Source: a virus. From it: a DNA stretch of 20,890 nucleotides. The DNA is taken from positions 1 through 20,890 of IMG/VR virus record IMGVR_UViG_3300030118_001452. One strand, 5' to 3'. The position numbers and the translations under genes are program-made. The notes below the pieces were generated by a model. The model saw only the letters and a program-made list of their open reading frames with translations. It was not told where the DNA came from and searched no databases. Position 1 is the stretch's first letter; every line of letters starts with the position of its first letter. This document shows, piece after piece, positions 16,617 through 20,810 of this stretch.

Positions 16617-16987
16617 GCTTCAAATACCTCCCTAAAAGTAGCTTTGATTGTAGCTCTATTGTTATATGGTATTGATTTAGTCCATCTTTCGCAAACAAAT
16701 TTCATCGTATCAGACTCTTCGGGTAAAAAACCGCTAGGAAAATTAAAACTATCACTATCGTTTGGTTTTCCTGCTGCATTTGCACGGGCATCTAAAAATG
16801 CTTCTATTTCGTCTGCTTCTGTTTCTGAAACGTCATAAGTAAGATTAAAAACTTTAGGATTTTGATGTTGTGTTAATCCAAAATTAAGTCTATGTTCATA
16901 CCCGTCTGCAAAAGTAATAGTGCGAACTTTTGGTGCGGAAGCCTTTTTTTGTCCGTATTTAGGTTTTATTGAGGGAAACGTAGCCAT
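16613..16987 (-). CDS. M: Lambda M-like minor tail protein (124 aa)
   Basis: Length and the pattern FADGYEHRLNFGLTQHQNPKVFNLTYDVSETEADEIEAFLDAR, ending with a beta-hairpin VCERWTKSIPYNNRATIKATFREV, match the Phage_min_tail (lambda gpM) family. In lambda, gpM joins the tail tip after the tape measure and the initiator complex. The start overlaps the tape-measure stop as TAATG. A GGAGGATT Shine-Dalgarno lies upstream within the tape-measure gene. The N-terminal Pro/Lys-rich stretch (PSIKPKYGQKKASAPKV) is a usual feature. Confidence 0.9.
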   Translation of the reverse strand: MATFPSIKPKYGQKKASAPKVRTITFADGYEHRLNFGLTQHQNPKVFNLTYDVSETEADEIEAFLDARANAAGKPNDSDSFNFPSGFLPEESDTMKFVCERWTKSIPYNNRATIKATFREVFEA

Positions 16988-18846
16988 TATGCAAGTAATC
17001 CTCCAGGTCTTTGCTGTTGTATTATTTCAGATTGTACCGCAGCAGAAATAAGTAATCCAAGTTCTTTTCCTTGTTCTTCATCACCTTCTACATCTGTTCC
17101 AGAAGCATCTACATTTACTACTATATTTGTTGAACCCATAGGACTAATTTGACCTCCAGTAGCTCCAGGTGTAAATAACTCAGGTCCACGTTCTCCAACA
17201 ATATAAGATTTATTAGGCTGAGTATAACCACCATTAGCAAAAGAACCTGCTGGAAAAGTATTACCATACATACGATAATCTCTCATATTCATCGCAGACA
17301 TATCAAAGGGATTAAAAATCCTTCCCAACATTCCTAACAAACCTTGCTGAAATTGATTTGCCAACATTCTCGCAGCAGTATCTAAGAAATGATCTGCAAT
17401 ACGATTTAACATATTTCTAAACGCATCTTGGACACTCATTGTTCCTTTTATTATTCCCTTAAATGAATTTTCAAATGAATTTGCCATTGTTTCAGATAAT
17501 GTCATAACCATATATATTGGATCTTTCAACCTGTTCATCTCATCTTTTAAATCTTTTACTTTATCTTTAATAACAGAAAAAGCTAATTCACCAGATTCTC
17601 CAAATTGACTATTAGCTTCATTAACAAGGCCAAGCATTTCCCTTACTTGGTCTAAGGCTTCTTTAAAATCTTTCATTCTTTTATTTCTGCCTTTTTCAAA
17701 TTCTTCTTGTAATTTATTTGCCCTTCCCTCTCCATATCTTGATGGATCGCCACCTCCTCTAAACAAGAACTCTTCAGCAGCATCTCTAAATCTATCTGAA
17801 AATGTTATTTGTTTTGCTCTAGCTACAGCAATATCATTTTCTGCTTTTGCTCTAGCTTCTGCTAACGCTAATTCAACAGTTGCACTATCAGTTATTAAAT
17901 TTTGTTGTAATAATTGTGTAGCAACTTCATTACCTATTTTTGTTCTAGTTTCAAAAATTCGATTAGCTAATTCAGCCTGTCTATTTGCACTAGCTACACT
18001 ATCAAAAGCTCCAGCATCAGCACCAAAAATTTCTGTTAAAGATTTTGCAATACTACCTGAACCAAATTGTGCAAAAGCTCCTAATACGCCAAAAGCTTCT
18101 TCTTTTGTAATTTTTAGCCGTTTAGCAACCTTATCAATATCTTCTGCTGTAAGTTGAGCACTACCACTTACGTCTGAAAAACGGACATTTAAAGTAGCTA
18201 ATGATTGATTAAATTTATCATTTTTATCAATAGCAGAACCTATTGCAGTACCAAGAATAGATAATGCAAAACCAAATTGACCGCCTATAGCTCCACCAGC
18301 GAGTCCACCAAGTCCACCACCAACTGCTGCTGCACCTGTTTGTCCAAAAAGCAAAGGAAAAGCTCCACCTATAATTGCACTACTAGCGGTGCTACCAAAT
18401 GTACCCGATCTTCCTTTATTAACATTTGCTTTAGAAGTATTATTTTTACTTGCTGCTAACTTTTGTTCTAATAAAATTTCTTTTCTTATTAATTGAATGT
18501 TTTGTTTATTAATCTGTAAACCTTTTTGTTTTAATCGTTGAATTACTTTAAAATCTATTTTTTGCTTTCTATATGCTTTATTTAATCTCTCTTCTTTATC
18601 AATTACATCGCCAATAGCTCTAAAATATCTTTCTGTACCTAAAGCAACTTTGTTTAAATTACCTTTAGCCTGACCTAATACTTTATTTAAAGTATTAAAT
18701 GAATTTGGTAATGTTTTACTTTGTTTATTAGCTAATTTATTTAAAGTATTTATTTCTCTAGTTAAAGCAGTTGTTTCAGCACGAACAGCCTTTAATTGTT
18801 TAGCACCTTTTACAGCAATAGCAATATCAACACTATAATTAGCCAC
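16987..18846 (-). CDS. H: Tape measure protein (619 aa)
   Basis: Largest gene between the chaperone pair and M, the canonical tape-measure place. It has helical, charged N- and C-terminal halves (about 15-140 and 300-500) around a Gly/Ala-rich hydrophobic segment at 153-205, thought to form the membrane-inserting part during ejection. The C-terminus has SFANGGYTQPNKSYIVGERG and PELFTPG (535-561), a motif common at tape-measure ends. The start codon is GTG (18846) with no clear Shine-Dalgarno, giving VANYSVDIAIAV... (read as Met). At about 0.15 nm per residue the tail would be roughly 90-95 nm. No lysozyme or peptidase domain is visible. Confidence 0.9.
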   Translation of the reverse strand: MANYSVDIAIAVKGAKQLKAVRAETTALTREINTLNKLANKQSKTLPNSFNTLNKVLGQAKGNLNKVALGTERYFRAIGDVIDKEERLNKAYRKQKIDFKVIQRLKQKGLQINKQNIQLIRKEILLEQKLAASKNNTSKANVNKGRSGTFGSTASSAIIGGAFPLLFGQTGAAAVGGGLGGLAGGAIGGQFGFALSILGTAIGSAIDKNDKFNQSLATLNVRFSDVSGSAQLTAEDIDKVAKRLKITKEEAFGVLGAFAQFGSGSIAKSLTEIFGADAGAFDSVASANRQAELANRIFETRTKIGNEVATQLLQQNLITDSATVELALAEARAKAENDIAVARAKQITFSDRFRDAAEEFLFRGGGDPSRYGEGRANKLQEEFEKGRNKRMKDFKEALDQVREMLGLVNEANSQFGESGELAFSVIKDKVKDLKDEMNRLKDPIYMVMTLSETMANSFENSFKGIIKGTMSVQDAFRNMLNRIADHFLDTAARMLANQFQQGLLGMLGRIFNPFDMSAMNMRDYRMYGNTFPAGSFANGGYTQPNKSYIVGERGPELFTPGATGGQISPMGSTNIVVNVDASGTDVEGDEEQGKELGLLISAAVQSEIIQQQRPGGLLA

Positions 18847-18877: not shown

Positions 18878-19072
18878 TTACCTCTTTTTACCTCGTAAAG
18901 CACTAGACCTTTGTGCTTGTTCTTGTTGTTTTTTAAATTCTTCATGTTCTATTTCTGCAAATGCAGCCCAACCCATCATTTCTTCAACAGTTAAAGTTTC
19001 AGAAAGTTCAGCAACAGTTTTTCCGAGTTCTTTTGCTAAAGAAAATATAAATTGCCAATCATTATTAGCTTT
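18878..19072 (-). CDS. T: Tail assembly chaperone T-like extension, expressed by frameshift (64 codons)
   Basis: A 64-codon open frame (KANNDWQFIFSLAKELGKTV ... EETLTVEEMMGWAAFAEIEHEE-like core ... RGKKR) follows the G-like gene in another frame. Its ELGKTVAELSE...MMGWAAF pattern resembles the extension of frameshifted tail chaperones (DUF4035-type, lambda GT). The first in-frame ATG is 30 codons in, inside the conserved part, so an independent start is unlikely. A TAA at 19073-19075 in this frame limits where the ribosome can enter. Fusion to G would give about 179 residues. It ends 31 nt before the tape-measure start. GT links tape measure to tail subunits in lambda. Confidence 0.75.
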   Translation of the reverse strand, partial: KANNDWQFIFSLAKELGKTVAELSETLTVEEMMGWAAFAEIEHEEFKKQQEQAQRSSALRGKKR

Positions 19073-19075
19073 TTA
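19065..19075 (-). other. Predicted programmed frameshift site (A-rich, +1 class)
   Basis: The zero-frame reading is TTA AAA AGC TAA TAA TGA. The T-like frame is the +1 (or -2) frame and is open only after a TAA that overlaps TTA-AAA. Slip of the Lys-tRNA from AAA to the overlapping +1 AAA would continue into GCT AAT AAT GAT TGG. The usual lambda-type -1 heptamer does not lead into the conserved frame. Confidence 0.55.
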
Positions 19076-19418
19076 ATTCGGCTTTAGCCTCTTGAACTCC
19101 TCTGGTTTGTCCAGCTTCAATCATGGCTAATTGTATTTCTTGTAATATATTTGCTTCAACTTCTCTTCTTAATGAAGCCTTATCTCCATCTTGAAAAAGT
19201 CTTTTACCATCTTCATCTAATGATTTTTCAATCATAAGAGCTAATGCAAAATCATTTGGATCATTACTATCTGATTTTTTCGTTATAGATTCTCTTTCAG
19301 CAATAGTCAAAGGATGCCAATAAACAGACAAAATAACCTTATCATCTTTAATTACATCGTGTTTATAAAGTTGAGAAACTCCAAACTTGTTTTTTAAAAG
19401 ATCAACTGCTCTAGTCAT
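19065..19418 (-). CDS. G: Tail assembly chaperone G-like protein (117 aa)
   Basis: Directly upstream of the tape measure, with the typical small chaperone look: beta-rich start (YKHDVIKDDKVILSVYWHPL), then TIAERESI, and a helical C-terminal half ending VQEAKAELKS. Three consecutive stop codons (TAA TAA TGA) end this frame, right where the T-like frame begins. No Shine-Dalgarno precedes ATG 19418. Instead a perfect 10-bp hairpin ends 4 nt before the ATG, so translation may depend on ribosomes finishing the upstream terminator gene. The G/T ratio set by frameshifting is important for tail assembly in lambda. Confidence 0.82.
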   Translation of the reverse strand: MTRAVDLLKNKFGVSQLYKHDVIKDDKVILSVYWHPLTIAERESITKKSDSNDPNDFALALMIEKSLDEDGKRLFQDGDKASLRREVEANILQEIQLAMIEAGQTRGVQEAKAELKS

Positions 19419-19422
19419 AAAA

Positions 19423-19448
19423 TTAGTATACTTACTTTAGTATACTAA
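19423..19448 (-). promoter_or_regulatory. Perfect 10-bp AT-rich stem-loop at terminator/chaperone junction
   Basis: TTAGTATACT pairs perfectly with AGTATACTAA across a 6-nt loop. The core AGTATACT occurs twice and is itself palindromic; TTAGTATACT is also a direct repeat with a 14-nt step. The stem covers the tail terminator's TAG stop and ends 4 nt (UUUU) before the chaperone ATG, where a ribosome site would normally be. It could be a translational switch, a weak terminator or a protein-binding operator. It has only two G-C pairs, so thermodynamic stability is low. Confidence 0.5.
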
Positions 19449-19873
19449 GCATTTGCGGTAAATTGGCAAGATATTAAGCCAAGAAAATGTGAAGAATCAT
19501 CTAATTCAATAGGAGCAGGGCCGACAATATCAAGCACTCTAGGATCACAACTAAAAGAATCTGTATAATCAGAAGCATTAACAGAAGTAAGTCCATCAAT
19601 AACAGCTTCACCTAAAGAAGATAACGTAGCACTACCTTTTCCTCTAGGAACATAGATATTACATTGAATTACTCCAGAATAAAAATCTTGTGATGCACCT
19701 TGAGTCTGTGTTGTAGCTTGTGCAAAATCTATTGACATAACAATATATTTTTTAGTCTTACCAGGAGTCTTATACATCATATTGTCATAAATCATTTCTA
19801 CAGTTGGATCAATATCTGCAACTGCATCTGTTACTGCCTTTTCAAAAGCTGCTCGTGTGTTAACTAAAGTCAT
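19445..19873 (-). CDS. Tail terminator protein (142 aa)
   Basis: A 142-residue alpha/beta protein starting with a helix (TLVNTRAAFEKAVTDAVADI), then YDNMMYKTPGK, then SQDFYSGVIQCNIYVPRGKGSATLSSLGEAVIDGL, a pattern of the phage tail terminator family (lambda gpU-like role, DUF4128-like). The terminator caps the growing tail tube and joins it to the head. Its location after the gp10-like protein fits; the next gene in lambda order should be the major tail protein, which is missing here. The start overlaps the upstream stop as ATGA. The stop lies inside the hairpin. Confidence 0.75.
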   Translation of the reverse strand: MTLVNTRAAFEKAVTDAVADIDPTVEMIYDNMMYKTPGKTKKYIVMSIDFAQATTQTQGASQDFYSGVIQCNIYVPRGKGSATLSSLGEAVIDGLTSVNASDYTDSFSCDPRVLDIVGPAPIELDDSSHFLGLISCQFTANA

Positions 19874-20424
19874 GGGGTTTCGTAATCAACAAATACAGAA
19901 CTAGGATCACTGAATGAACCAATACCTTTTCCTTTGAATCTTACATTATCAGATTTACCTCTAACACCAGTACCAAATGCAGCAATACCTAGTTTTGGTT
20001 TATCTGTAAACATTTGATTTATAAGATTTCTTAAATCCCCTTGAACATATTGAGGTATTTGACTATTAGGAGAAGCTAAAGCTCTAGCTGCATATTGTGA
20101 CCTATTACCAATAAATACTTTAGAAAAAGGTTTAAAATTTGGTATTTCATCAATAAATCTAGGTTCTACTTTTGCTTGAGAAGATTTTTGACCTTTTTTT
20201 GTTGGTTTTATATTACTCCAAGGTGCAACTGATTCTCTAGCCTCATCAGGCCTAGGTCTTTTTGTACTAGCTGTCCAACTAGAAGCAAAAAATCCAGTAT
20301 CAACAGGACTATTTTCTTCTGTAGATAGATCAGCAATAACAGCTTTAACTAATTTATTTAAATCTCTTTCTAAATTTCCTTCTAAGTCTGGAATAATTTT
20401 ATCGAGATTTAATCTTGAAGCCAT
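19870..20424 (-). CDS. HK97 gp10 / lambda Z-like neck or tail-completion protein (184 aa)
   Basis: The helical N-terminus (IIPDLEGNLERDLNKLVKAV) followed by SPVDTGFFASSW (39-50) matches the P-V-D-T-G-x-x-x-x-S-W signature of the HK97 gp10-type family, which acts in head-tail joining or tail completion. Further on, a YAARALASPN segment and a Gly-rich C-terminus are seen. It precedes the tail terminator, as Z precedes U in lambda. TGATG overlap with the upstream gene. The middle insertion KPTKKGQKSSQAKVEP is lysine-rich and may contact DNA (speculative). Confidence 0.75.
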   Translation of the reverse strand: MASRLNLDKIIPDLEGNLERDLNKLVKAVIADLSTEENSPVDTGFFASSWTASTKRPRPDEARESVAPWSNIKPTKKGQKSSQAKVEPRFIDEIPNFKPFSKVFIGNRSQYAARALASPNSQIPQYVQGDLRNLINQMFTDKPKLGIAAFGTGVRGKSDNVRFKGKGIGSFSDPSSVFVDYETP

Positions 20425-20810
20425 CAGAACCTCACCAATAATGTAAACAGATAAGTCTGTCCACCTTGCCTTGTATCTATATTAACTATCTGTCCTACTC
20501 TTGTAGATCCAGCATAAGTTAATGTAACTTCGTCTTCAAAACTAGGTTGATTATTACCAATCAAATCAGGTGTAATATATATCTTTGCTTCTCTTCTTTC
20601 TCTACCATCATCTTCTGTAGATTGAACAAACTCAACAGGAACTTTTAAATTTGAATACGTTGTATCAACAGTAATATTTTCTCCTTTCTCTATGTTATAC
20701 ATAGCAGTTCCTTTCTTTGTATAAACAATAGTTGAATCTAAAGAACTACCTAAATCAGCAACAACCTGTTTAGCTACACTTTTTAATAATGAATCTAATT
20801 GACCTGCCAT
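20424..20810 (-). CDS. Putative head-closure / head-tail joining protein (128 aa)
   Basis: A 128-residue protein: helical N-terminus (LDSLLKSVAKQVVADLG), then a mostly beta body with YTKKGTAMYNIEKGENITV, VPVEFVQSTEDDGRERREAK, IYITPDL and an ending YLFTLLVRF. Size, beta-barrel-like pattern and place directly before the gp10-like gene suggest a head-closure adaptor of the lambda FII / SPP1 gp16 type. No residue signature is decisive, so this rests mainly on order and fold impression. It overlaps the genes on both sides (TAATG and TGATG). Confidence 0.55.
   Translation of the reverse strand: MAGQLDSLLKSVAKQVVADLGSSLDSTIVYTKKGTAMYNIEKGENITVDTTYSNLKVPVEFVQSTEDDGRERREAKIYITPDLIGNNQPSFEDEVTLTYAGSTRVGQIVNIDTRQGGQTYLFTLLVRF

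Follow-up and report, generated by a model that had tools for sequence, protein, structure and literature searches.

Two tail assembly chaperone frames in a marine cyanophage-like virus group are probably joined by a +1 frameshift at AAA_AGC

The viral stretch analysed here (20,890 nucleotides, IMG/VR record IMGVR_UViG_3300030118_001452, referred to below as the window) carries on its minus strand two overlapping frames resembling the tail assembly chaperone pair G and T, and the question it raises is how the second of them is translated. The G-like frame (19065..19418, minus), identified by ORF calling and homology, encodes a zero-frame product of 117 aa and ends in GCC GAA TTA AAA AGC TAA TAA TGA; the zero-frame stop at 19065..19067 is followed directly by two more, as the original prediction had it. 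The T-like frame lies in the +1/-2 register relative to G, reads AAA GCT AAT AAT GAT TGG... from 19072 down to 18878 (translated K ANNDWQFIFSLAKELGKTVAEL...), and opens no earlier than the Lys codon, a TAA at 19073..19075 standing immediately 5' of the entry. Entered by a +1 shift, it spans 18878..19069 and comprises 63 codons and a stop (18880-18878). Several further points of that prediction were borne out: the first ATG, GTG or TTG in the T frame is codon 31, leaving 30 codons with no start; the upstream TAA fixes the earliest entry point; the -1 frame of the window reaches a stop in about 10 codons or fewer, leaving no obvious -1 route; and joining G residues 1-116 to the 63 residues of T gives 179 aa, the approximate length foreseen for the fusion.

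The surrounding gene set is a lambda-like tail module, in which the G/T pair stands directly 5' of the tape measure gene. The order on the minus strand is terminator-like gene, G, T, tape measure, and then M-, L-, K-, I- and J-like genes. The terminator-like gene (19445..19873, minus; 142 aa) matches phrog_179 (E 3.2e-11) and PF13554 (E 1.6e-4, below the cut-off of that family), and the tape measure protein (16987..18846, minus; GTG start) matches phrog_8892 (E 7.4e-10) and phrog_1538 (E 5.9e-9); its location directly downstream of T is the position expected for a G/GT pair. G itself matches phrog_20784 (E 2.3e-25), and T, which lies in the other frame, lacks a start of its own and is reachable only by a shift near the G end, matches the tail protein family phrog_337 (E 3.2e-8). 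Pfam gave no match for either G or T of the window, TAC_13 stayed below its cut-off for the KBS homologue, and no solved structure was found by sequence similarity. An AlphaFold2 model of G (pLDDT 80) was compared with the PDB by Foldseek, and among the top matches were 2ob9, the tail assembly chaperone of HK97 (prob 0.97, E 0.02, TM 0.43-0.45), and YqbN (3klu; prob 0.96, E 0.08), TM values spanning 0.43-0.49 overall. The predicted fold of G is thus closest to that of the HK97 chaperone, the match being a modest one. None of the genes between the capsid-side genes and G (window 19445-20810) clearly resembles a major tail (tube) protein, which T should recruit; the gene before G matches tail terminators.

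Homologous loci with a callable T frame were collected by searches seeded with cultured relatives and more distant members, the T frame being called with a T profile, and numbered 438. T was in the +1 frame in 185 of them, every one of which (185/185) carried AAA_AG(C/T/G) within the last 12 codons of G, and in the -1 frame in 253, where this motif was never found (0/253); elsewhere in these genes it occurred 11 times among some 45,000 codons. Of the 253 -1 loci, 245 had a classical heptamer such as A_AAA_AAC or C_CCA_AAA, and the remaining eight comprised five with an A_AAG tetramer (P-HS2 and four relatives), S-2L, and two with CCC AAG AAY. The P-HS2-like loci (L083, L089-L092) read GCA_AAG in place of A_AAA_AAC; the -1 branch of the family thus appears, from its sequences, to vary its slip site as well. 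Within the +1 branch, the AAAAA run emphasized in the original prediction is indeed present in the window, but only because the Leu codon before AAA is TTA there; among 68 distinct relatives this codon is TTG in 39, and what is conserved in the alignment is the register, the AAA_AG(C/T/G) motif and an invariant block of four A's (AAA_A), not the full run of five. Across all +1 members the codon 5' of AAA is TTA, TTG, ATG, ACC or AAC, AAA_AGC being retained even after ACC and AAC, and in a separate +1 clade (the ATG type) AAA and AGC are invariant in 59/59, with flanks that are otherwise different. The constant nucleotides are those that let a Lys-tRNA pass from one AAA onto the next, overlapping one, together with the G that follows. 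In the +1 loci L273-L277, L385 and L434, G continues for several codons past AAA_AGC before its stop, which indicates that the stop need not adjoin the slip site. Searching by tblastn with the G proteins of the window, L283, L293 and L367 turned up no cultured phage that has the +1 site. These comparative data agree with the prediction, a chaperone pair whose two frames are connected by non-canonical shifting at AAA_A, and suggest that the window holds a G/GT-type gene whose T is very probably made only as a G-T fusion, by a programmed +1 frameshift at AAA_AGC (19068..19073, minus; P-site Lys AAA at 19073-19071, A-site Ser AGC at 19070-19068).

Since a homopolymer adjoins the junction, it has to be considered that the gene is truly in frame and that the A-run carries an indel from sequencing or assembly. 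In the 80 viral loci nearest to the window, whose G proteins are 81-98% identical to its own, the +1/-2 register and the core GCC GAN TTR AAA AG(C/T/G) were kept in 80/80, as was a TAA or TGA at the position of the T-frame TAA. In a scan of 2.9 million viral contigs, the 21-nt site occurred with four A's in at least 120 stretches; its three-A variant, in which G and T would share a frame, had no match. Among the matches listed that lay away from contig edges, T was open in +1 and G closed within 8 codons in 74/74, one of these carrying AAA_AGA. Neither of the two findings named beforehand as fatal to the prediction, a frame-restoring indel in the A-run or a homologue with a normal in-frame T start, was encountered, and for this clade the indel explanation can be regarded as refuted. 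One viral protein in BFVD, D6PII1, has 179 aa, the length of the predicted G-T fusion, and is 57% identical to G over the alignment; it may represent an in-frame fusion that occurs naturally in an intermediate lineage, or else its source may contain a homopolymer error. Slippage of the RNA polymerase on the same A-rich run, giving a shifted mRNA, is hardly credible: most members have no more than A4 there (TTG AAAA G), against listed run lengths of more than 7 A for programmed transcriptional slippage (PMC3711429). T could also be made separately, by internal initiation or by reinitiation past the G stops, so that no fusion would be needed; codon 31 is the first T-frame ATG in 56/66 distinct sequences, and distinct TAC ORFs have been predicted in some phages (EA1 cluster; PMC6856279). 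However, the 30 codons that precede this ATG are under strong purifying selection, with a pN/pS of 0.155 in the +1 frame vs 1.08 in -1 and 2.69 in the zero frame, and many of their residues are invariant (including W5, F7 and S10-K13); low pN/pS in this frame alone implies that T codons 1-30 are real coding sequence. Moreover, most members have no start codon among them, and reinitiation would not require the AAA_AG(C/T/G) that is found in every +1 member and replaced by -1 heptamers in the relatives. We consider separate synthesis of T very unlikely.

The +1 register is also that of a -2 shift as in phage Mu, and the original prediction had left the choice between the two open; the non-canonical register stood, and the data favour +1 over -2. 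In a -2 shift the ribosome would slip back two bases after AAA and read AAA again, yielding ELKK-ANND. Such shifts are known for Mu (PMC5009743). The window also has an AGG 14 nt upstream of the slip site. A spacing of 14 nt is more typical of stimulators of backward slippage. Re-pairing at -2 would, however, place the tRNA-Lys on UAA or UGA (in the window and ATG clades) or on CCA (in the ACC AAA AGC members), with mispairing at the first or the first two positions, whereas one base forward it moves from AAA to AAA and pairs perfectly. Only the four A's needed for the +1 move are conserved, the base before them being A, G or C. As the codon before AAA varies in this way, re-pairing at -2 is ruled out and +1 is by far the better reading; overall, we regard a -2 shift as unlikely. 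Trypsin cleaves after the junction Lys, so that the peptide ANNDWQFIFSLAK would be identical for the +1 and -2 shifts.

For the favoured +1 frameshift, the following sequence of events is envisaged. Most ribosomes would terminate at the TAA right after AGC and release the 117-aa G. Once Lys-tRNA sits on AAA in the P site and the A site presents the low-usage Ser codon AGC, a fraction of the peptidyl-tRNA-Lys may slip one base forward, a step for which the sequence provides the pairing; Ala-tRNA would then read GCT, and translation of 63 T codons, whose coding nature is evident from pN/pS, would complete a 179-aa fusion (...ELK-ANNDWQF...). In the window clade the frozen AGGCTAAAGCC could serve as an enhancer of this shift. 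By analogy with lambda, and in view of fold, gene order and homology, G and G-T would coat the tape measure and recruit tail tube subunits. In the window, 8% of the codons for Ser are AGC and 11% of those for Arg are AGG, figures that describe phage usage and are no proof of slow decoding in the host. As to the efficiency of the shift and the ratio of G to G-T, we infer both from sequence.

The arrangement is similar to lambda G/GT, and to the wider set of dsDNA phages, in having overlapping ORFs just 5' of the tape measure, a T frame that lacks a start, a shift near the G end and a TAC-like fold. It differs in that the shift is +1, at AAA_AGC, with no X_XXY_YYZ heptamer and no conserved downstream structure; the lambda-type combination of a heptamer with T in -1 does not occur in the window. 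Likewise, the relatives KBS-S-2A, P-HS2/MED4-184, S-H1, HTVC202P and HTVC026P share homologous G and T and the gene order, and the KBS-like -1 members even have the slip Lys codon at the same position (DVKN vs DMKS/ELKS), but their T is in -1 with A_AAA_AAC, C_CCA_AAA or A_AAG. Mu-type slippage, in which the slip tRNA re-pairs two bases upstream, does not suit the window, and a P-site tRNA that re-pairs in +1 does. In this respect the site resembles those of yeast Ty1 (CUU_AGG_C type) and prfB (CUU_UGA), at which a single P-site tRNA likewise moves forward by one base and pairs again; its A-site codon, of low usage here, is an AGN codon as in Ty1-type +1 sites. Unlike in Ty1 and prfB, the P-site codon is Lys AAA and the re-pairing is perfect; unlike in prfB, the A site holds AGC rather than a stop and there is no Shine-Dalgarno sequence 3 nt upstream, the nearest AGG ending 14 nt upstream. 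G/GT genes have already been described as shifting by -1, -2 or +1 depending on the phage (PMC5009743), and 350 forward TAC sites from SEA-PHAGES genomes were among the PRFect positive cases (PMC10885494); Mu with its -2 shift, HSTV-2 with a likely +1 shift and these forward sites have in common with the window a T frame reached in the +1 register. The generic forward motif 'four' (XXX_X) of PRFect would include AAA_AGC. An AAA_AGC site, or switching of direction within one close family, is not described in the available portions of these two papers, and nothing relevant on AAA_AGC frameshifting was found among searchable papers. A +1/-2 shift at G/GT is thus already known in general, and what appears to be new, relative to the searchable papers, is the AAA_AGY site and the switching of direction within one family.

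Just 5' of the site, the codons GAG/CAG-GCT-AAA-GCC are frozen at synonymous positions in the window clade. The element concerned, AGGCTAAAGCC (19080..19090, minus), is synonymously invariant across 68 distinct sequences: GCT111 and GCC113 are kept in 68/68, GCC being 7% of Ala codons, and pS is 0.14-0.16 within the element vs 0.50 for codons 86-107 of G and 0.51 for the first ten codons of T. AGGCTAAAGCC could fold into a 3-bp hairpin, GGC-UAAA-GCC, of -3.5 kcal/mol, which ends 6 nt ahead of the slip codon. The energy of this hairpin is not better than that of shuffles, and as it is invariant it offers no compensatory changes; consensus folding returned two short helices, one of them this hairpin, with no covariation. 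The hairpin is absent from the ATG-type +1 clade. In a 70S system, an upstream hairpin that refolds by the E site stimulates +1 and attenuates -1 frameshifting (PMC6321510). In the window clade AGGCTAAAGCC probably raises the shift, its role being uncertain, and its likeliest form would be a small hairpin that refolds just behind the E site. A function of the GAGG as a Shine-Dalgarno sequence was considered and rejected, as L446 has CAGG and the 14-nt spacing is unsuited to a +1 stimulator. The window RNA at 18990-19101 (minus) folds unusually well (z -4.17), GGCUAAAG pairing with CUUUAGC in T. As a downstream stem-loop this was discarded: the fold is not kept in relatives, with a mean z of -0.43 over 66 sequences and the long-range pairing in 16/66. 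The absence of a conserved downstream structure fits a +1 site.

When the family was aligned, the slip Lys codon fell at one position in DVKN (GTA AAA AAC, -1, KBS-S-2A), DMKS (ATG AAA AGC, +1) and ELKS/DLKS (TTR AAA AGC, +1, window clade). KBS-S-2A and L367 (ATG AAA AGC) use -1 and +1, respectively, and yet their G proteins are 73% identical; the junction differs by a 2-nt gap and AAC/AGC, and the fusions are equal in length (D-V-K-N-L-K-Q-E-L-K-K-D-N vs D-M-K-A-I-K-A-D-L-K-K-D-N). For L084 (3899-4460) and L367 (3001-3500), close homologues that shift in opposite directions, the junction difference is this 2-nt gap and AAC/AGC. A single origin of +1 is disfavoured: a quick tree requires at least four changes of register, and in the AU test the hypothesis of one +1 clade received p 0.022, or 0.058 when the long-branched L283 was left out. 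Independent changes are few, the three independent pairs giving a sign test p of 0.25 at low power. It is likely but not proven, on these sequences, that the family changed the direction of slippage more than once. A broader scenario, to which we assign an even chance, is that AAA_AGY is a general bacterial +1 site, adopted several times by tail-chaperone genes through a 2-nt indel and an AAC-to-AGC change in an ancestral A_AAA_AAC; the fusion length would thereby be kept and the direction reversed, with the small upstream hairpin helping the forward push in the Prochlorococcus-phage clade.

The host group of the window clade is likely Prochlorococcus, since the single-cell assembly of Prochlorococcus sp. 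AG-418-M08 includes a 41,291-base phage contig with a homologous gene, 76% identical, that has the same register and site; terminase, portal and capsid genes lie beside it. The other named member with a +1 site, AG-345-A17, is a single-cell-derived particle, from a plate sorted via an extracellular gate (PMC6122165), and both single-cell-derived members carry an AAA_AGC-type site. Programmed +1 sites of bacteria and phages are fewer and less well defined than -1 heptamers, and the present family offers a simple one across hundreds of contigs. Its natural +1/-1 swaps in homologous genes provide matched pairs, such as KBS-S-2A and L367, for finding the nucleotides that set direction. Callers of tail chaperones that look only for heptamers miss T in this common marine cyanophage-like group.

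No Shine-Dalgarno sequence is visible before the start of G. The interval separating the terminator-like gene from that start (19418-19450, minus) contains a palindrome, TTAGTATACTAA, with a partial second copy, AGTATACTAA. Only the first part of this region is kept in relatives, and the palindrome could be an operator, part of a promoter or an RNA hairpin.
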